This document shows positions 2,476-14,430 of a DNA stretch of 22,713 nt, piece by piece. The stretch comes from a virus. How positions within the stretch are numbered: position 1 is the first letter of the stretch; every line of letters starts with the position of its first letter. The DNA is taken from IMG/VR virus record IMGVR_UViG_3300025785_000104, positions 1 through 22,713 of that record; one strand, 5' to 3'. A program made the position numbers and the translations under genes. A model generated the notes under the pieces. The model did not search any database, had not been told where the DNA came from, and saw only the letters and a list, made by a program, of their open reading frames with translations.

Positions 2476-4806
2476 TTATGCAACTGCGTTGTGAATCTTC
2501 TTGTTGAGGTCCACACTGGCACGTAGGTAATCATTGGTTTGTTTTTGTTCTTTCAACATGTCCTGCATGAGTTTGGCTGTGTTAGTTTCTCCTCCGCTGG
2601 TACTGCCACCAGTTTTGTTTCCGCTGCCAAACATGTGATCTAGTACACCAACTGCTGCCATCTTGGCTAGATCTGCTGCTGTAGGCAAGCTCTCATTGAT
2701 CTTTTTCATTGCCCCAGCTACTGCCATCAACCGATTGGGATCCAACTGCTCAAATTTTTGTACGCCTGCTACCACAGCATCAAACCCGCCTGCACCACTT
2801 ACTAGTCCCGCTAATGCTCCTCCAACACCAAACGGCAACATGGCTATACCAACAGCAGCTATGCCCGGAGCAATGGCCAGCAACTGCAAAGGGTTGACTT
2901 CAGTTGCCATTTTGATCAGGCTATCAGCTAGAGTACCTAGAACTGCACTGGCTGCTTTGCCCATTGCTTCAATAGCAGGTGCAGCATATTCTAGCGCTTT
3001 GCCCAGTCCCATTGCTGTTAGTGTAAATGCTGCCATACCTGCCAGTGTTGCAGAATTTGCCAACAAAGCGAATCCTTCAGCAAGGCCTTTTAGTCCCCCG
3101 CCAATGCCGCCGCCGGCGCCTCCGCCCACAGCTCCTCCAACTTTTTCCAGTGCCCCACCAGCTCCGCCTAGAGTTTTTTCAAGTACTGATCCACCTACAC
3201 TAGCCGCACCTTTGGCTGCTACTGCGGTTCCTGCAAGGGCACCAAACCCTGCTACAATTGCCTGTACTATCATTCCAGTCCATCCACTCATTGCACTGGC
3301 TAACCAAGATCCTCCGCCAGCAGCAACACCCACAGCACCTTTGATCTGGTTAATTGTGGTAATCAACGCATCTTTAAAAGCTGGCAAGTGATCACTTGCA
3401 ATTTTTTGCATCTGTTTGGCCATGTCTTGCTGTGCAGACATTAGATCAGCGGCAGTATCTTTACCTTCTTTACCAGCTTTTTGCTGTTTTGCAATCTTGT
3501 CTTTTTCTTCTTGAACGTTGGCACTGCCCATCTTGCCGTATTCTTTCATGGCCTTGGTAGCCATTTCGTCCAGTCCTGAATACCCGTGCTGTGCCGCAGT
3601 GGCCAATGCACCTTGATTGGCCAACTGTGATTCAATTTGATCTCCGTATTTTTTACGCAGATTCATTTCAGCTTCGGCATCCAGTTTGCCTTGTTGGGCC
3701 AATCTGAATTCTTCTTCGTGCATGGCCTTAAGTGCAGGGCTTGCCTGTTCTAGTATGGCCACGTTTTTATCTGTAACTGCACCGCCGTGAGCTATACGAT
3801 CTTGTATGGCTTTGGCACTGTCTTCAGTCATTGCACCTAATGCTTTATTAAACTTGTCACGTGCAATAGGATCCATCTTGGCCAGTTCTTGTTGCATTTT
3901 GAAATTGTTTGATCTGGCTTCGGCTTCTTGTTGCTGTTCCTTTGCGCTCTTGCCTGTCAAGTCTGCTACTAGTTTAAGATCACGTGCATACTGTTCTGTC
4001 AATGCTGCAACTTGTTCGTCGCTGGCCTGTAGCTTACCTGCAGGCCCAGCCAAGCGTGCCATGGTAGCTGCATAAGCATCAGCCTGTTCTTCCATGGTCA
4101 TGCCCAGAGCAAACATACCGTTACGTGCAGCATCACCACCAGCTTTCATGGCCGCTGCCATTTTTTTGCTGCCTTCTGCAACGCCTAGACCTGACTTGGT
4201 AAAGTTTTCAGTATTGGCTGCAACTGATTTGCTAAACTGTTCTACAGTCATACCGGCACCAAGTGCAGTGGCAGTCATGGCCTCTAGCCCGCCACTATAG
4301 ACTGCACCCACAGACGACATTTGTCGGAAACCATCAATCATCTTGTTGGTTTCTTTCAGCATAAAGTCAATGCCAGCTTTGGTTAATTCTTGTATAGCAC
4401 CAACTAGTCCGCCCAGCGCCTGCCCAGCAGCAGCCATGTAACGACCATTGTTGTTGCCTTCTTTGGCCATTTGATTACCAATTCGTATCATGGCATCAGT
4501 GCCAACTTTGAATCCTGCGCCCATCGTATCGATGTTGCTTTTCATAAAGCTGGCGGCTGTGGCCATGGCATCTCCGCTGGCCATAGCGCTGGTAGCTGCA
4601 CCCATAAAGCTCTTGACTAGCCCGCCAACTATAACTCCACTAAACTTGGCGGCAGAAGATTCCATAACTTCCGTAGAAGTTTCCAACTCATCTGTCCAGA
4701 GTCCCAATGCTTTTGCTACTTCTTTATCGCGCTTTTCTTGTTCTTTGCTCCGCTTCATGTCTTTTTCATGCTGGGCGGCTTTTTCGCGATCAATTTCGTC
4801 GGCCAT
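2476..4806 (-). CDS. Tail tape measure protein
   Basis: This 776-aa protein has tape-measure composition: a charged helical N-terminus (residues 1-40, many Lys/Glu), long Ala/Met/Lys-rich helices to about residue 470, then Gly/Ala-rich hydrophobic segments (about 490-690, including GGAGGGIGGGLKGLAEG and LLAIAPGIAAVGIAMLPFG) that could enter or cross the host membrane. A helical tail follows. The tape measure sets tail length and is ejected ahead of the DNA; the T4 counterpart is gp29 (590 aa), so a somewhat longer tail is expected if the ruler rule holds. It is assigned by composition and context (next to hub assembly protein gp26 and the portal), not by a specific motif. The ATG at 4806-4804 is preceded by AGGA 5 nt upstream. 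It is transcribed from a perfect TATAAATA box at 4845-4838. Confidence 0.82.
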   Translation of the reverse strand: MADEIDREKAAQHEKDMKRSKEQEKRDKEVAKALGLWTDELETSTEVMESSAAKFSGVIVGGLVKSFMGAATSAMASGDAMATAASFMKSNIDTMGAGFKVGTDAMIRIGNQMAKEGNNNGRYMAAAGQALGGLVGAIQELTKAGIDFMLKETNKMIDGFRQMSSVGAVYSGGLEAMTATALGAGMTVEQFSKSVAANTENFTKSGLGVAEGSKKMAAAMKAGGDAARNGMFALGMTMEEQADAYAATMARLAGPAGKLQASDEQVAALTEQYARDLKLVADLTGKSAKEQQQEAEARSNNFKMQQELAKMDPIARDKFNKALGAMTEDSAKAIQDRIAHGGAVTDKNVAILEQASPALKAMHEEEFRLAQQGKLDAEAEMNLRKKYGDQIESQLANQGALATAAQHGYSGLDEMATKAMKEYGKMGSANVQEEKDKIAKQQKAGKEGKDTAADLMSAQQDMAKQMQKIASDHLPAFKDALITTINQIKGAVGVAAGGGSWLASAMSGWTGMIVQAIVAGFGALAGTAVAAKGAASVGGSVLEKTLGGAGGALEKVGGAVGGGAGGGIGGGLKGLAEGFALLANSATLAGMAAFTLTAMGLGKALEYAAPAIEAMGKAASAVLGTLADSLIKMATEVNPLQLLAIAPGIAAVGIAMLPFGVGGALAGLVSGAGGFDAVVAGVQKFEQLDPNRLMAVAGAMKKINESLPTAADLAKMAAVGVLDHMFGSGNKTGGSTSGGETNTAKLMQDMLKEQKQTNDYLRASVDLNKKIHNAVA

Positions 4807-4814
4807 GTTAGTCC

Positions 4815-4822
4815 TATAAATA
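4815..4822 (+). promoter_or_regulatory. T4-type late promoter driving the gp26-like gene
   Basis: An exact TATAAATA box. With the T4 spacing (box at about -13 to -6) transcription would begin near 4828-4830, giving a leader of about 25 nt with AGGA at 4845-4848 and an ATG at 4855. It would be recognised by the phage late sigma factor gp55, encoded in this window. Confidence 0.75.
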
Positions 4823-4837
4823 TGTTAGTATATCAAG

Positions 4838-4845
4838 TATTTATA
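4838..4845 (-). promoter_or_regulatory. T4-type late promoter driving tape measure, homing endonuclease and portal
   Basis: An exact TATAAATA on the minus strand. The expected start near 4830-4832 gives a leader of about 25 nt with AGGA (4815-4812) and the ATG at 4806. It faces the plus-strand late promoter with start sites almost touching, so the two polymerases would compete for the same 35 bp. Confidence 0.75.
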
Positions 4846-4854
4846 GGAAAAAAC

Positions 4855-5736
4855 ATGACACAATTTGCTCCACAAGCAATACCCAACCAAATTGCCGGAA
4901 ATAACCCGTTAGCCAAACATTTTAGGCAACCTGCTATTTTTACACGCCTGATCAGCGGTGGCAAGTACTGGCCTGATGGCGCATTGGATTTACCAGTAAC
5001 TGGCAAGATTCCCGTGTATCCTATGACCACACGAGATGAGATCACACTGAAAACTCCTGATGCCCTAATTGATGGAACCAGTGTTGTTAATGTGATACAG
5101 AGCTGCTGCCCAAATATCAAAAATGCCTGGGAAATGCCCAGTGTTGATGTTGATGCTATCTTGATTGCTGTGCGTATCGCCAGCTATGGTGGATCGATGG
5201 GTATTGAATCAGTTTGTCCTCACTGCAAGAATGAACACGAATATGATATCAACTTGAGCAGTATACTTGACACCATACCAATGCCCGACTACGACACTGA
5301 GCTGCGTATCAATCAAGAAATTTCAATTAAACTGAAACCCATGAATTACTTGCAGGTAAGTCGTGCAGGCACTGCTGCATTTGAAGAACAACGTTATATA
5401 CAGTCGTTGAGCACATCAGATGCCACCGATGAGCAAAAGAAAGAGCAGTACGGTCTACATTTGGAAAAACTGGTTGATCTCAGTATCAAGAACATTGTCT
5501 ACTGTACAGAAGCTGTTATTTTAAACAGTACAGAACGTGTGACTGATCCCAAGTACATCTCTGAATACTATGCAAATGCTGAAACTAGCGTACTAAAGAA
5601 ACTGCAAGATCGTATCAAAGAATATGCAGATATCACTGCGCTCAAACCCATGACTGTGCAATGTACTGCTTGCCAAGCAAACTTTTCATTGAGCATTCAA
5701 TTTGACTATGCAAGTTTTTTCGGCAAAGGCTTTTGA
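4855..5736 (+). CDS. 26: Baseplate hub assembly protein, gp26-like (T4_baseplate family)
   Basis: A 293-aa protein. The start is the ATG at 4855 because AGGA lies 6 nt upstream and the late promoter lies at 4815. The open frame continues 39 codons further upstream, but those codons overlap the tape-measure coding sequence and the promoter. Residues 50-120 (GKIPVYPMTTRDEITLKTPD, later WEMPSVDVDAILIAVRIASY) match the gp26-like baseplate family of T4-type phages. Cys pairs CPHC (121-124) and CTAC (270-273) look like a zinc ribbon split by a long helical middle. In T4, gp26 acts in assembling the central baseplate hub. The protein is longer than T4 gp26 (208 aa). Its TGA overlaps the TTG start of the next gene, implying translational coupling. 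Confidence 0.75.
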   Translation: MTQFAPQAIPNQIAGNNPLAKHFRQPAIFTRLISGGKYWPDGALDLPVTGKIPVYPMTTRDEITLKTPDALIDGTSVVNVIQSCCPNIKNAWEMPSVDVDAILIAVRIASYGGSMGIESVCPHCKNEHEYDINLSSILDTIPMPDYDTELRINQEISIKLKPMNYLQVSRAGTAAFEEQRYIQSLSTSDATDEQKKEQYGLHLEKLVDLSIKNIVYCTEAVILNSTERVTDPKYISEYYANAETSVLKKLQDRIKEYADITALKPMTVQCTACQANFSLSIQFDYASFFGKGF

Positions 5737-6266: not shown

Positions 6267-6425
6267 TCAGCCATAAAAATCGTCTTCAAATAGCAAAACT
6301 GGGGCATTTAACCAGTCGTCGTCCTGTCAAGGATAGTTGCTAAGTGCTCTGTACGGCGCAGAGGCTTCCGTCCCCCTTTTTATCAGGTTGTCGCTAGACA
6401 CACGTTTTAAGACCTGTGTGAGTCG

Positions 6426-6860
6426 TTATCCGTTTAATTTGTTTATAATGTGGGAGCCATGAACACGAACACTAATTTGTCCGTTATAATAATCTGTTGA
6501 TTCTAATACTCTATGTGTAAATTGTTCTCTAGCCTCAATGTAACTACATTCTGCTTTTGATTTGCAATAGTAAAGTATTTCTCTGGTAAAGTTTTCGGTG
6601 CCATGAGTTTGAACGTCTCGGTTTAGTTGATCGTTTGAGCCATAATAGGTAAGCCAATCGCTGTCCACTTTGCTGCGGATCTTTTGCTTTTTCTTTGTAC
6701 CGTTCTTGAGTTTTACTGTTTTATAAGAAGTTTTTGCGAATTTCGCTAGTTTTTTGCCTATGTACTTTTTGCCAGATAGATTATTTGTAATGAGGTATAC
6801 GAAGCCCACACAGTCTTCGGGTAGAGTTTCTACAGGGGTTCCTTGATAGTACCAGGTCAT
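6426..6860 (-). CDS. GIY-YIG nuclease-like protein
   Basis: A 144-aa protein with a GIY-YIG-type core: VYLITN at residues 21-26 and KKYIGKK at 31-37, then a basic insertion (about 39-65, Lys-rich), DWLTYYGSN at 68-76, and Glu109 in YIEAREQF as the probable metal ligand. No NUMOD or other DNA-binding module follows, so it is a compact one-domain nuclease. Similar short proteins occur in T4-like phages; whether they home or act in DNA repair or degradation is not established. It is the last gene of the minus-strand operon, 18 nt after the radical SAM gene upstream, and starts with ATG at 6860. It is unrelated in its C-terminal half to the NUMOD3 endonuclease at 1951-2442. Confidence 0.75.
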   Translation of the reverse strand: MTWYYQGTPVETLPEDCVGFVYLITNNLSGKKYIGKKLAKFAKTSYKTVKLKNGTKKKQKIRSKVDSDWLTYYGSNDQLNRDVQTHGTENFTREILYYCKSKAECSYIEAREQFTHRVLESTDYYNGQISVRVHGSHIINKLNG

Positions 6861-6878
6861 TACACATATAGTTATGAC

Positions 6879-7880
6879 TCACCATTCGGTAGCGTATTTT
6901 TCAGTAACCACACTGCTTGAACATTTAGTTTGACATTCCTGCCAACGAAACGTTTGAAACTCACCTGTCCAAAATTCATGGGCCAGTGCTTGTTCTAGTG
7001 TTGTATGATTTAAGTTAAATTGTTCTGCCAGTGTTTGCCATTCGTTATTGTGATTATATCTATTTGCGACCCAACAGCAGGGAAATAATCTTCCCCGTGC
7101 ATCAATGTATAGCCCCTTGTTACCAATAGCGCAAAGGGGTGTAATTTCAGCGGAGCCGCTAATTTTATTATAAAGTTGCTGGTTTGTAAAATTTATAGGT
7201 TGCCATGATGAATAATCTGTAGCGATGCGTTCAAATCTATGTGTAGAGCTAATTAAATCTCTACTGGGCTCTAGCGCATCGTTTGTGCCATAAGAATCGT
7301 ATATTGAGCCAAATTTTGTGCTCTTTGTCAGTTGAAATCTATCAACGCCCAACTGTTTTGCAAATCGTTGCATAAAATCCAAACGATGTTCGTTAAATTT
7401 AAATGCAATAGCTGCCCAAACAATCTTACAGCGACTGATAGCTCGTAGGGTTTTTAACCCAGCAATGATGCTGTCCCAGTCGCTGTTGACACGATAGATG
7501 TTATTACTGTAATTATCGTAGCCGTCGATACTAAAATGTACGCTGTCAATTTCAGTTAAGGTTTTGCCCAGTTCAAGCCACCAAGTGATCTTTTTGTGTG
7601 ATCCATTGGTAACTATCACAATCTCAACGGGCTTGATGCTTTTGACGTACTCAATGACAGGGATCAGATCGTGTGCATATATGGGGTCTCCGTCGTCGCC
7701 GCAGAATGTGATCTTTTCCACATTCGCTTGTATAAACTCGGGAGTAAAGTTGCGTTTGAAAAATGCCAAGTCTAGCTCGGTGTTTACCAGTGTGTCGGGT
7801 ACTTCTTGTCGAGCACAGCGAGGGCAGCGCAAGGTACACTTGCTTGAAATCTCAATATGAAAATGCCAAGTTGCTAACAT
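6879..7880 (-). CDS. Radical SAM/SPASM-like protein 1
   Basis: A 333-aa protein. The radical SAM cluster motif CTLRCPRC (Cys15, 19, 22) binds the catalytic 4Fe-4S cluster and S-adenosylmethionine. FCGDDGDP (59-66) fits the GGEP-type SAM contact and HFSIDG (115-120) a later core strand. The C-terminal part has Cys250, paired Cys268/269 in RLFPCCW, and Cys316/Cys320, the layout of a SPASM or twitch auxiliary cluster. Such proteins modify peptides, proteins or small molecules by radical chemistry; the substrate here is unknown. Its ATG overlaps the end of radical SAM 2 by 7 nt, so the two are translationally coupled. It shares motifs with the other two radical SAM proteins (TNGS, WW, IYR, HNEH-like FNEHR), so they are paralogues. 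This is the longest of the three, with an extended C-terminus. Confidence 0.88.
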   Translation of the reverse strand: MLATWHFHIEISSKCTLRCPRCARQEVPDTLVNTELDLAFFKRNFTPEFIQANVEKITFCGDDGDPIYAHDLIPVIEYVKSIKPVEIVIVTNGSHKKITWWLELGKTLTEIDSVHFSIDGYDNYSNNIYRVNSDWDSIIAGLKTLRAISRCKIVWAAIAFKFNEHRLDFMQRFAKQLGVDRFQLTKSTKFGSIYDSYGTNDALEPSRDLISSTHRFERIATDYSSWQPINFTNQQLYNKISGSAEITPLCAIGNKGLYIDARGRLFPCCWVANRYNHNNEWQTLAEQFNLNHTTLEQALAHEFWTGEFQTFRWQECQTKCSSSVVTEKYATEW

Positions 7881-8719
7881 AAATTTACCTCACGTTGCCA
7901 TTGACTGTTAAAACTGTTAACGGTACCTGAACAGGTAGCTTTGCAAACTGGATGCGGATTTGTACTCCATGTAAGTTTAACCTGTTCCATAGTGACAAAA
8001 TTAGACAACCTATGTCCTTGCCAGCAGCAGGGATGAACATGTGCCCGTGCGTCTATATAAACACTAGATTCTTCAAGTGCCTGACAAACTATATTGCCTT
8101 GTGTTTTGATAGGATTTTGCCATCCAACAGGAAATTCTAGCCCATCGATATATGGTCTCTTACTGACCTTGGCTCTAAACCATTTGAATCCCATCTGTTT
8201 AGCCAATGCTTCACAAGCATCAACTTGGTGTTGATTGTGTCGATAGACCAGCATATCCCAGTGTGCGTTACCACCAGCATCAATAAAACTTTTGGCATTG
8301 GTCATTAGCTTGTGCCAATCTACGTTTTTACGATATATGTGATTTGTATCTTCTAGGCCGTCGATGCTGAATACTACAAAATCTTTGGGCTTGTTTAAGA
8401 TATTTGCTACCTCAACCCACCAATTGGGTTTACGTAGTGCGCCATTGGTATTCATACCCAACGTTATATTAGGATTTATTTTTCTAAACTGTCTATAGAT
8501 GTTGAGTGTGTGTTGCCCAGCAGCTGGGTCTCCATAATTACCACACATAAACATTTTATCTAGTCCAGCTATAGCATCAACCCCTACTGCTTGAATAACA
8601 TCAAACATTGACAAATGATGCTGTACTGATTTATCAAATTCAGTGCTGGTTTCGCGGGCACAGAGAGGACAGGCCGCTTGGCAAACGTCTGTTGGCTCTA
8701 GGTGCAAAATTTTAATCAT
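7874..8719 (-). CDS. Radical SAM/SPASM-like protein 2
   Basis: A 281-aa protein with CQAACPLC (Cys13, 17, 20) for the catalytic 4Fe-4S cluster, MCGNYGDP (58-64) as the SAM-contact loop, MNTNGALRKPNWW (89-101), and VVFSIDGLEDTNHIYR (115-130). Auxiliary-cluster candidates are Cys212, Cys231/232 in HPCCW, Cys259 and Cys263, plus Cys281 as the very last residue. The layout matches SPASM/twitch radical SAM enzymes that act on peptides or other large substrates. The start ATG overlaps the gp46 stop by 4 nt, and its own end overlaps radical SAM 1 by 7 nt, so gp46, this gene and the next are one translational unit. Substrate unknown. Confidence 0.88.
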   Translation of the reverse strand: MIKILHLEPTDVCQAACPLCARETSTEFDKSVQHHLSMFDVIQAVGVDAIAGLDKMFMCGNYGDPAAGQHTLNIYRQFRKINPNITLGMNTNGALRKPNWWVEVANILNKPKDFVVFSIDGLEDTNHIYRKNVDWHKLMTNAKSFIDAGGNAHWDMLVYRHNQHQVDACEALAKQMGFKWFRAKVSKRPYIDGLEFPVGWQNPIKTQGNIVCQALEESSVYIDARAHVHPCCWQGHRLSNFVTMEQVKLTWSTNPHPVCKATCSGTVNSFNSQWQREVNLC

Positions 8720-10488: not shown

Positions 10489-11343
10489 TTATCGGCTGCA
10501 TTGATGTATACATACAGCTCTGGGAGTATCCTGTAATTCTTTTGCTATATCAGGCAAATTGTTGTAGTCGTCGAAACATAACTCAGTATTGAAAAAACAA
10601 CAGCTACTGATCTTTCCGTTAGCATTCAAGTATACACTAGGTTGAGCTAGATGTCGACAGTAATCGACTTTTATATCTCGACGAACTTTTTCATATTTGT
10701 TCATCGCAGCATTACTCTGCCAAGACTGTATATCTAATTCAACACCTGTTTGATAGTGCTTGAAAGGAAATTCTTTACGTACATCTCGTATGAATTCAAA
10801 ACGCTTGAATCCCAACTGTTGGCTCAAACGTATACAGTCTTTGATTTGATGTTCGTTATGCTTCCACGGAATAAACTGCCATACCGCAGTACCGCCCGCT
10901 GACATAAAAGTTTTTGCGTTATCAATTATGGTATTAAAATCAGTGCCTTGGCGATATATGCTGTGTGTATCAGCAAGCCCATCTAAACAAAACCAAACTT
11001 CATGTTTGTGCTCTTTTAATATATTGGCATATTGAGTCCACCAAACGGCATTTCGTAAACTACCGTTAGTTCTTACAATAATCTTTTCAGCATACTGTTT
11101 GGCAATTTCTGTCAACGACTTGATATTATAAGCAGCGATGGCATCTCCATAAGTGCCACAAAAATCAATTACTTCAAGATTGGGCATGAGTTTGACATAT
11201 TGTTCAAATACACTTTCATCCAGATCTTCTAGTACCAATGCAGGATTTAGGCCGTAGCCGCCTTGACTGCGATAACAGCCCGGGCACCAGGCATTGCATT
11301 TGGTTGTGGCTTCTACTTGTAACCATTTGATGTTTGTTATCAT
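10489..11343 (-). CDS. Radical SAM/SPASM-like protein 3
   Basis: A 284-aa protein with CNAWCPGC (Cys16, 20, 23), FCGTYGDA (61-68), RTNGSLRNAVWW (91-102), FCLDGLADTHSIYR (118-131) and KHNEHQIKDC (161-170). The C-terminal cysteines are Cys229, Cys248/249 in SSCCF, Cys256, Cys278 and Cys282, consistent with a SPASM/twitch-type auxiliary cluster. It is nearly the same length and pattern as radical SAM 2, but sits on the other side of gp46, so duplication followed by separation, or separate acquisition, must have occurred. It starts 27 nt after the sulfotransferase-like gene and ends 3 nt before the gp46 ATG. Substrate and reaction are unknown. Confidence 0.88.
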   Translation of the reverse strand: MITNIKWLQVEATTKCNAWCPGCYRSQGGYGLNPALVLEDLDESVFEQYVKLMPNLEVIDFCGTYGDAIAAYNIKSLTEIAKQYAEKIIVRTNGSLRNAVWWTQYANILKEHKHEVWFCLDGLADTHSIYRQGTDFNTIIDNAKTFMSAGGTAVWQFIPWKHNEHQIKDCIRLSQQLGFKRFEFIRDVRKEFPFKHYQTGVELDIQSWQSNAAMNKYEKVRRDIKVDYCRHLAQPSVYLNANGKISSCCFFNTELCFDDYNNLPDIAKELQDTPRAVCIHQCSR

Positions 11344-11370: not shown

Positions 11371-12003
11371 TTAAACATCCATCTTCCAATGACTTAGATT
11401 TTTCTTTACAGAGTCTTGAAAAGTATCTATGAAATTATTTAATAGCATAATATACTTGGGGTCAAATGTTAGATTTTTTTGATAATTGGTAACGTTGACA
11501 TAATTTTCAGATATGGCAATGGTATCTATCTCCAAGTAGTCTGTAATTTGATTCATTGTGTACTGCGGTGAATTTTTTATATCGTCGTAGTATAGAATCA
11601 GTATATCTGCTGGTAATCTTTTTATTATGTTTGCATAATCAAAAAATTGAATAAAAGAATCTAAAAAATTATCTGAATCCCAGTTGTGTAGCTGCCAAAA
11701 ATTATACAGGCTGTTGGCGTAGGTATAAGGATTTCTAAATATGATACTTTTGTGTGTGGCCCTACTGGATATTTGGTTGATCTGATTACTATCTAATCTC
11801 CAAGAACTGACATTAAAGTTTAAACTGAACTGGCTGTTTTCAAAATATTTGTTGTAAGACTCAAGATTTCTGGCTATGTGCAAGCCTGGCTCTTTTATAC
11901 CTTGATAGTCAATGGCAGGCGAAGTCATTAAATTATTGTACAGCCAAGACGATGCCGTCTTGGCAGTTCCAAAATTAATAAAATGCTTGGTCGAGGTATT
12001 CAT
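11371..12003 (-). CDS. Sulfotransferase-like protein (PAPS-binding)
   Basis: A 210-aa protein. Residues 9-21 (INFGTAKTASSWL) fit the 5'-phosphosulfate-binding loop of sulfotransferases (G-x-x-K-x-x-x-x-W), with Lys15 as the candidate catalytic lysine. Residues 90-100 (RNPYTYANSLY) fit the 3'-phosphate-binding motif, with Arg90 and Ser98 at the canonical spacing of eight. Such enzymes move sulfate from PAPS to sugars, peptides or small molecules. It is short (typical members are about 250-300 aa) but both nucleotide-binding motifs are present. It overlaps the end of the 132-aa gene by 29 nt and is visibly A+T rich compared with gp46 and gp47, suggesting transfer. The acceptor is unknown; surface glycans, phage glycans or a radical SAM-modified product are possible (inference). 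Confidence 0.72.
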   Translation of the reverse strand: MNTSTKHFINFGTAKTASSWLYNNLMTSPAIDYQGIKEPGLHIARNLESYNKYFENSQFSLNFNVSSWRLDSNQINQISSRATHKSIIFRNPYTYANSLYNFWQLHNWDSDNFLDSFIQFFDYANIIKRLPADILILYYDDIKNSPQYTMNQITDYLEIDTIAISENYVNVTNYQKNLTFDPKYIMLLNNFIDTFQDSVKKNLSHWKMDV

Positions 12004-13437: not shown

Positions 13438-14316
13438 TCAGTCATCGTGGCCGCCATCTACACTCACATAACCGCCGCCAATGCCTTGTCGTGTGTAGCT
13501 GGGATTCAAACCATTCATTTCCAAAATGTCATCTCGAATGTTTTGATTACGCTTTTCAGTGTTCAGTACTCGAGTAAAACTATTGGTAACTGCCGCAGTG
13601 TAGTAGGCAAATGGGTTTTGACTTTTGGATTCGTCAAACTGTAGCCCAATCTGTACTAATTGTAGCAGAGCTTGACTACGCATTTCGTCATTGTAGGTGT
13701 AGCCACGCCAGTTGCTACGTGTAGCATAGCGTTCGCACAGTTTCATATACATGTTGGCCAAGGTCCTGGTGATGCTGCCATGATCTCGAGTGTAGGCTCC
13801 GGTTGCCAAATCACCTCGCCAGTGGCTCTTGCCCACACAGTAAGGATTGCCTTCTTCGTCCAGTTTGTAGTGCTGGAATGGTGGAAAATTGACCTTGACA
13901 TACTTGTTATGTGCAGTATCTTCTTCATCAAAATCTGTGATTAATGGATCAGCTTCATCTTCAATTTCCAAAGCAGCCATACGGGCCTTGCGAGTTTTAG
14001 CATCATCAATGGGTATATGTTCCCAGGTCATCACACGAAAAATCACATCCGAGTCTTTGACATCTTTGAGTTTGACTTCAAATTCGTCCAATTTACGTTT
14101 AACGCCATCGGTAGCAGCCGCTTCATGTGCCAGTTTGGCCAAGCGTTCTGCACGTAAACGTCTACCTTCTAGGGTGTTCTTTTTGTTTAATTTGCTGATG
14201 TCGGGCAAGATAATGTCGTAATCTGCATATTCGGGTCGTGCATACGTGCAGTATGTGGTCTTGCTCTTGTGGATTTCTTTTAAGATATCCTTGTTGTTGA
14301 GGTAATTGTGCTTAAT
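13438..14316 (-). CDS. 55: Late sigma factor gp55-like; apparent ATT start
   Basis: The N-terminal KHNYLNNKDILKEIHKSK matches the NYVNNKELLQAI start of T4 gp55, and the C-terminal third (GYTYNDEMRSQALLQLVQIG, then FDESKSQNPFAYYTAAVTNS) matches its sigma region 2. It directs polymerase to TATAAATA late promoters. The open frame extends to a TTG at 14370, but that TTG is part of the -35 hexamer TTGACA, so translation cannot begin there on a transcript from this promoter. Downstream of the promoter no in-frame ATG, GTG or TTG precedes the homologous region. An ATT at 14316-14314 stands 7 nt after AGGAG (14328-14324). The ATG at 14323 is out of frame and stops after three codons. From ATT the protein is 292 aa, much longer than T4 gp55 (185 aa), owing to about 130 charged residues between the conserved ends. 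Confidence 0.85.
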   Translation of the reverse strand: MKHNYLNNKDILKEIHKSKTTYCTYARPEYADYDIILPDISKLNKKNTLEGRRLRAERLAKLAHEAAATDGVKRKLDEFEVKLKDVKDSDVIFRVMTWEHIPIDDAKTRKARMAALEIEDEADPLITDFDEEDTAHNKYVKVNFPPFQHYKLDEEGNPYCVGKSHWRGDLATGAYTRDHGSITRTLANMYMKLCERYATRSNWRGYTYNDEMRSQALLQLVQIGLQFDESKSQNPFAYYTAAVTNSFTRVLNTEKRNQNIRDDILEMNGLNPSYTRQGIGGGYVSVDGGHDD

Positions 14317-14341
14317 TTTGCATCTCCTGGTAACTCGAACA

Positions 14342-14370
14342 ATAATAACAAAGTTTGCAGAATTTGTCAA
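14342..14370 (-). promoter_or_regulatory. Strong sigma70-type promoter for gp55 and the early operon
   Basis: On the minus strand, TTGACA (14370-14365), a 17-nt spacer and TATTAT (14347-14342) make a near-consensus host promoter (11 of 12 bases). The start is expected near 14335, giving a leader of about 20 nt that contains AGGAG. It faces away from the late promoter at 14403-14410, so early and late transcription diverge here. Confidence 0.82.
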
Positions 14371-14402
14371 CCTTTTTATAATATTAGTACTTTATTATAG
14401 AT

Positions 14403-14410
14403 AATAAATA
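14403..14410 (+). promoter_or_regulatory. Late-promoter-like box AATAAATA before the tail-tube-fold gene
   Basis: AATAAATA is one base off the T4 late box. The expected start near 14416 leaves a leader of about 15 nt before the ATG at 14431. The following bases include AACGGA, also seen downstream of the box before gp6 (22617-22624). Confidence 0.55.
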
Positions 14411-14430
14411 CTACAAACGGACAAATACTT

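Follow-up and report, generated by a model that had tools for sequence, protein, structure and literature searches.

The 22,713-nucleotide stretch of DNA analysed here, called the window, comes from the genome of a giant T4-like phage, of which it is a 22.7-kb fragment. Two divergent genes in the window, a baseplate hub gene on the + strand and a probable tail tape measure gene on the - strand, have start codons separated by 48 bp, and the gap between them holds a perfect palindrome. This layout raises two questions: how both genes are expressed from so little DNA, and whether the symmetry itself is what selection has kept. Judging from the sequence motifs and their distribution, we consider it very probable that the gap is a compact two-way late promoter, in which two gp55-type octamers stand face to face.

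Genes and motifs at the junction

The genes found in the window include those for a portal protein, the gp26-like hub, SbcC-like and SbcD-like proteins, a gp55-like late sigma factor, and baseplate proteins. The features needed for the argument are the following.

2476..4806, - strand: probable tail tape measure protein, 776 aa, profile homologue of RaK2 ORF088
4812..4848: palindrome of 37 bp, with perfectly matching 11-bp arms TCCTATAAATA (4812-4822) and TATTTATAGGA (4838-4848) and a 15-nt spacer
4812..4815, - strand: Shine-Dalgarno (SD) site AGGA of the tape-measure-like gene, 5 nt before its ATG at 4806
4815..4822, + strand: T4-type late promoter octamer TATAAATA for the gp26-like gene, predicted start ~4828
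4838..4845, - strand: T4-type late promoter octamer TATAAATA for the tape-measure-like gene, predicted start ~4832
4845..4848, + strand: SD site AGGA of the gp26-like gene, 6 nt before its ATG at 4855
4855..5736, + strand: baseplate hub subunit, gp26-like, 293 aa, PHROG 150 and Pfam PF12322 (T4 baseplate protein)
13438..14370, - strand: gp55-like late sigma factor, PHROG 12791, 268.8 bits

The first-pass annotation had described perfect 11-bp arms around a 15-nt spacer, each arm serving as the late octamer of one gene and the SD of the other, with two start sites that nearly coincide. The arms and spacer were confirmed, and the octamers and AGGA sites were located on both strands. The near coincidence of the starts also holds as a prediction, since the T4 late octamer spans -13 to -6 (PMC1524935), which places them at 4828 (+) and 4832 (-). 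Exact copies of TATAAATA occur twice in the whole window, both in the palindrome arms (0.86 expected by chance in total). When the 110 bp upstream of the gp26-like gene were shuffled with dinucleotides preserved, an inward pair of NATAAATA was seen in 0 of 500 shuffles.

The two genes had been identified as gp26 and tape measure. The first name stands as gp26-like on the PHROG 150 and PF12322 matches, while the second is only probable. The 776-aa left ORF had no family match of its own, and tblastn of the protein against named phages gave no match, so that a profile was needed to reveal its homology. A profile built from 50 sequences finds RaK2 ORF088, annotated as similar to a tape measure, at 5.8e-14. 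The same profile did not recover T4 gp29, and for this reason we call the protein a probable tape measure rather than a demonstrated one. The nearest named relatives of the hub protein are in Sinorhizobium phage Phosso, Agrobacterium phage Atu_ph07, and the RaK2/121Q/CBB group, all at <35% identity. The order portal, tape measure (-), hub (+) is shared with RaK2, 121Q, and Phosso; in Atu_ph07 the hub/tape measure gene pair is rearranged.

Several other features of the window were recorded. The tape measure and portal genes are separated by an inserted homing-endonuclease-like ORF (1951-2442, -; PHROG 314, 15526). Three radical-SAM-like ORFs (6879-7880, 7874-8719, and 10489-11343, all -) lie beside or between the SbcC- and SbcD-like genes, and there is a weak sulfotransferase match at 11371-12003. 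Past the 3' end of the hub gene, on the tape-measure strand, the Rfam family RF01718 ('Polynucleobacter-1 RNA') matches at 6288-6424 (-). Directly upstream of this RNA on the same strand is a SegE-like GIY-YIG endonuclease ORF (6426-6860, -; PF19835), the family of which carries the PHROG 447 label 'NAD synthetase'. RF01718 was also found near the hub gene in 13 related loci (72-118 bits). It was not found in five others or in the RaK2, 121Q, and Phosso loci, some of these sequences extending too little past the hub to exclude it. This distribution suggests that RF01718, a family without known function, is at least partly a conserved phage RNA. A second divergent gap (14371-14430) separates the gp55-like gene (-) from a structural gene (+). 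It has a late-type octamer, AATAAATA at 14403-14410, directed toward the structural gene only, as expected if gp55 is not itself a late gene.

Conservation in relatives and recurrence at other junctions

To measure conservation independently of the motif, 24 gp26 loci were picked by hub-protein similarity, some of them closely related to one another. In 18 of them the 110 bp before the hub start contained an inward ATAAATA (NATAAATA) pair, compared to 0.05 expected from dinucleotide shuffles. The outward, back-to-back pair was found in 0 of the 24 (0.06 expected). Most of the six loci that lack the exact inward pair have one exact octamer and one mismatched octamer; the Phosso hub locus has no facing pair, even under a loose match. 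Short AT-rich repeats abound in phage DNA, and unselected pairs of TATAAATA..TATTTATA often do not lie between divergent ORFs, so a chance palindrome in AT-rich intergenic DNA had to be considered. However, the conservation refutes it, and we give this explanation virtually no weight.

The pair also occurs in named phages. RaK2 has a facing pair at the orthologous junction and a second one at a divergent gene pair beside a structural gene. Atu_ph07 has one facing pair, in a neighbourhood similar to that of the second RaK2 pair; in both cases the pair has a structural gene on one side and, on the other, a small ORF next to a 'DNA polymerase' gene. Among the 33 divergent gaps of RaK2, two inward pairs and one outward pair were counted, and both annotated facing pairs were recovered. 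Twelve long relative contigs, chosen because they hold the module, have one or two inward pairs each and no outward pair. A tally of divergent pairs on a 354-kb contig was discarded because the simple ORF caller missed the known gp26/tape measure pair, probably through wrong starts.

A strict scan of IMG/VR was conducted for the full module with its SDs, CCTATAAATA-N10-20-TATTTATAGG. It returned 110 loci with 45 distinct sequences, and in 105 of the 110 the module separates two divergent ORFs. The spacers of these divergent loci are 11-17, and nearly all of the loci have start codons 4-14 nt beyond the GG on both sides. As a control, a palindrome with matching base composition, GGTATAAATA..TATTTATACC, gave 15 loci, none of them divergent. 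The module joins the following gene pairs.

hub / tape measure: 87 loci
tail tube cap / gp4-like head closure: 8 loci
tail tube cap / gp53-like wedge: 6 loci
gene pair without known identity: 4 loci

All the identified genes at these junctions function in the virion or in tail assembly. Thus, the search for the same module between divergent late genes of relatives, proposed in the first-pass annotation, found it in many of them, and octamers on one side only, which would have spoken against that annotation, are not the case in most relatives tested. A few strict loci do appear single-sided, one of which resembles a GIY-YIG endonuclease by sequence. Outside the 10-20 spacer range the module is rare in IMG/VR, with 4 loci at 0-9 and 19 at 21-51. 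Two of the short-spacer loci resemble hub/tape measure junctions by ORF length, so the lower spacer limit is not strict. Scans for bare octamer pairs were set aside because chance AT-rich matches dominate them; under a loose test, 55 of 120 inward and 22 of 121 outward pairs were between ORFs, among the matches listed.

The facing pair is conserved, but is the symmetry? The first base differs between the two arms in RaK2, the CBB group, PHA46, and two further gp26 loci. In relatives with unequal arms AATAAATA stands opposite TATAAATA, and in some the SDs are not adjacent to the octamer. The inward octamers in the gp26/tape measure gaps of relatives are spaced by 10-18 or 23-26. These two spacer groups are about one helical turn apart, with none at 19-22, in a small and related sample. 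Since the first base of the arms varies while both octamers persist, the symmetry itself is not conserved. The facing promoter pair is widely conserved and the SD abutting the octamer less widely.

These observations bear on two explanations in which symmetry is the selected feature. The first-pass annotation had proposed that the symmetry locks equal expression of the hub and tape measure proteins, and the octamers and SDs are indeed identical in the window and in several near relatives. However, many relatives have unequal octamers, SDs, and spacing, up to the full spacer range of 10-26, and the module also joins the tail tube cap gene with gp4 or gp53, pairs for which no fixed ratio is known. 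The variable arms and spacers leave equal expression unsupported, and we regard selection for equal amounts as very unlikely. Alternatively, a dimeric repressor or activator might use the inverted repeat as its operator. The dyad is perfect and the octamers could be read as half-sites, but a fixed dimer would poorly tolerate a spacer that varies from 10 to 26 and arms that are asymmetric at base 1 and in their flanks. The chance that the repeat is such an operator seems slimmer still.

Predicted hairpin in read-through RNA

The palindrome could also act in RNA. In T4, the leaders of gene e, I-TevI, and segB form a hairpin that hides the ribosome-binding site, with a late promoter in the 5' arm (PMC2988022, PMC3014915). 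The junction studied here is similar in having an octamer in one arm and an SD in the other, and in a late RNA that would lack the first arm. In T4 this arrangement controls one gene, in contrast to the present repeat, which is used by both strands and in which the hairpin is not significantly conserved. For read-through RNA of the palindrome the computed folding energies are -11.5 kcal/mol on the + strand and -9.0 kcal/mol on the - strand (z about -3). The predicted probability that the SD is unpaired is 0.01 and 0.02 in read-through RNA, compared to 0.93 and 0.72 in late RNA. Late RNA would start inside the spacer and keep the far arm only, so that the hairpin could not form. The earlier expectation that a hairpin hiding AGGA is limited to read-through RNA is therefore borne out by these computations.

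We asked whether the palindrome is mainly a two-sided RNA switch of the gene e/I-TevI type, in which an early read-through hairpin would hide the SD and late RNA would be translated. The computed folding hides the SD on both strands, and the only inward ATAAATA pairs of T4 belong to I-TevI and segB, both known to be controlled in this way. Middle-type SbcCD-like genes lie upstream on the - strand, which makes read-through into the tape measure gene conceivable. On the other hand, there is no sense gene upstream of the gp26-like gene on its strand, and 105 of the 110 strict palindromes lie between divergent genes rather than at single-sided loci such as the endonuclease-like one. Among relatives, hairpin energy drops from -10.7 to 0 kcal/mol while the octamers are kept or nearly kept. 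In a permutation test of pairing, the bases flanking the CC/GG pair did no better than permuted at five of the six outer positions; position 5 outside the arm was significant, and none of the four inner positions was. SD hiding was not significant against octamer-preserving shuffles (p = 0.08, 29 sides). None of these three comparisons revealed conservation of structure beyond the promoter octamer, and we consider a primary role as an RNA switch unlikely.

The hairpin may be a second use of the palindrome in lineages in which the SD abuts the octamer. A combined reading, in which the 37-bp palindrome is two overlapping late promoters together with a translation-silencing hairpin in read-through RNA of either strand, is one we hold with considerable doubt. 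If it is true, the same bases would keep two divergent structural genes late in both transcription and translation. An intrinsic terminator was also considered and rejected: the stem is mostly A-T (9 pairs, against 2 G-C), and the bases after it are AAAAAC (+) or CTAAC (-), giving neither a G+C-rich stem nor a U run.

Probable facing late promoters

We return to the two-way late promoter. As in T4, where late transcription uses the gp55 sigma factor, gp33, and the gp45 clamp, late structural genes are preceded on their own strand by a TATAAATA/NATAAATA octamer without a -35 element, and the phage encodes a gp55-like late sigma factor. The ATAAATA late motif has likewise been reported upstream of structural genes in CBB and GAP32 (PMC5259590). 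The orientation differs: in the T4 26/51 divergent gap the octamers are back to back, TATTTATC then TATAAATA, whereas here they face each other, and T4 has no inward pair between divergent genes at spacers 8-22.

In T4 a late promoter consists of one TATA box, and the upstream end of the complex is where the clamp binds (PMC2988020). Because such promoters need the octamer only and no -35 element, two of them can be packed face to face, and the upstream side of each could sit inside the other gene. We infer that the gp55-like factor would read both octamers. Rightward RNA would begin at ~4828 and leftward RNA at ~4832, their 5' ends overlapping by ~5 nt, and each leader of ~26-27 nt would hold the opposite promoter's octamer with the SD immediately after it. 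With the SD of the opposite gene lying next to each octamer, the two functional signals together make a perfect inverted repeat; in this reading the palindrome is a by-product of packing and symmetry is not the selected feature. Two polymerases should not fit at once, and firing in one direction at a time is expected from the overlapping geometry of the two promoters.

Bidirectional promoters of E. coli offer a comparison. Warman, Grainger and colleagues (PMC12825309) describe pseudo-symmetrical regions at which polymerase can bind in both orientations but not simultaneously, which resembles the present case. The divergent-start distances that they give as common are 18, 10, and 23 bp, 18 most often, and the predicted starts at the palindrome do not show such a distance. 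Here, unlike in the promoters described there, two separate inward octamers stand 15 nt apart, the predicted 5' ends overlap by ~5 nt, and a phage sigma factor is expected. According to the same paper, competition in these E. coli promoters has an effect only under strong activation of one direction, and it lowers noise. Competition between the two late polymerases, as the first-pass annotation had it, is plausible by this analogy, since late phage transcription is expected to be strong.

Face-to-face promoters are found in bacteria as well. In divergent operons such as argECBH, overlapping promoters face each other and serve divergent genes, with the host sigma factor and under repressor control; the present junction differs in having phage late octamers without a -35 element. 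We found no published description of facing late promoters in the literature searched, most subscription journals lying outside the search.

In this phage, 48 bp serve two genes with two promoters and two ribosome sites. The junction offers a natural, widely conserved test case of two sigma-programmed polymerases on the same base pairs in opposite directions. The CBB authors found no gp33 or gp45 homologue (PMC5259590), so clamp-dependent late transcription is only presumed in this phage group. If the clamp on which T4-type late transcription depends has a defined face, a facing pair might allow a late gene to be fired whichever way the clamp is oriented. For annotation, two ATAAATA motifs that face each other are usually the sign of a place where divergent late genes meet, in the giant T4-like phages covered by this analysis.
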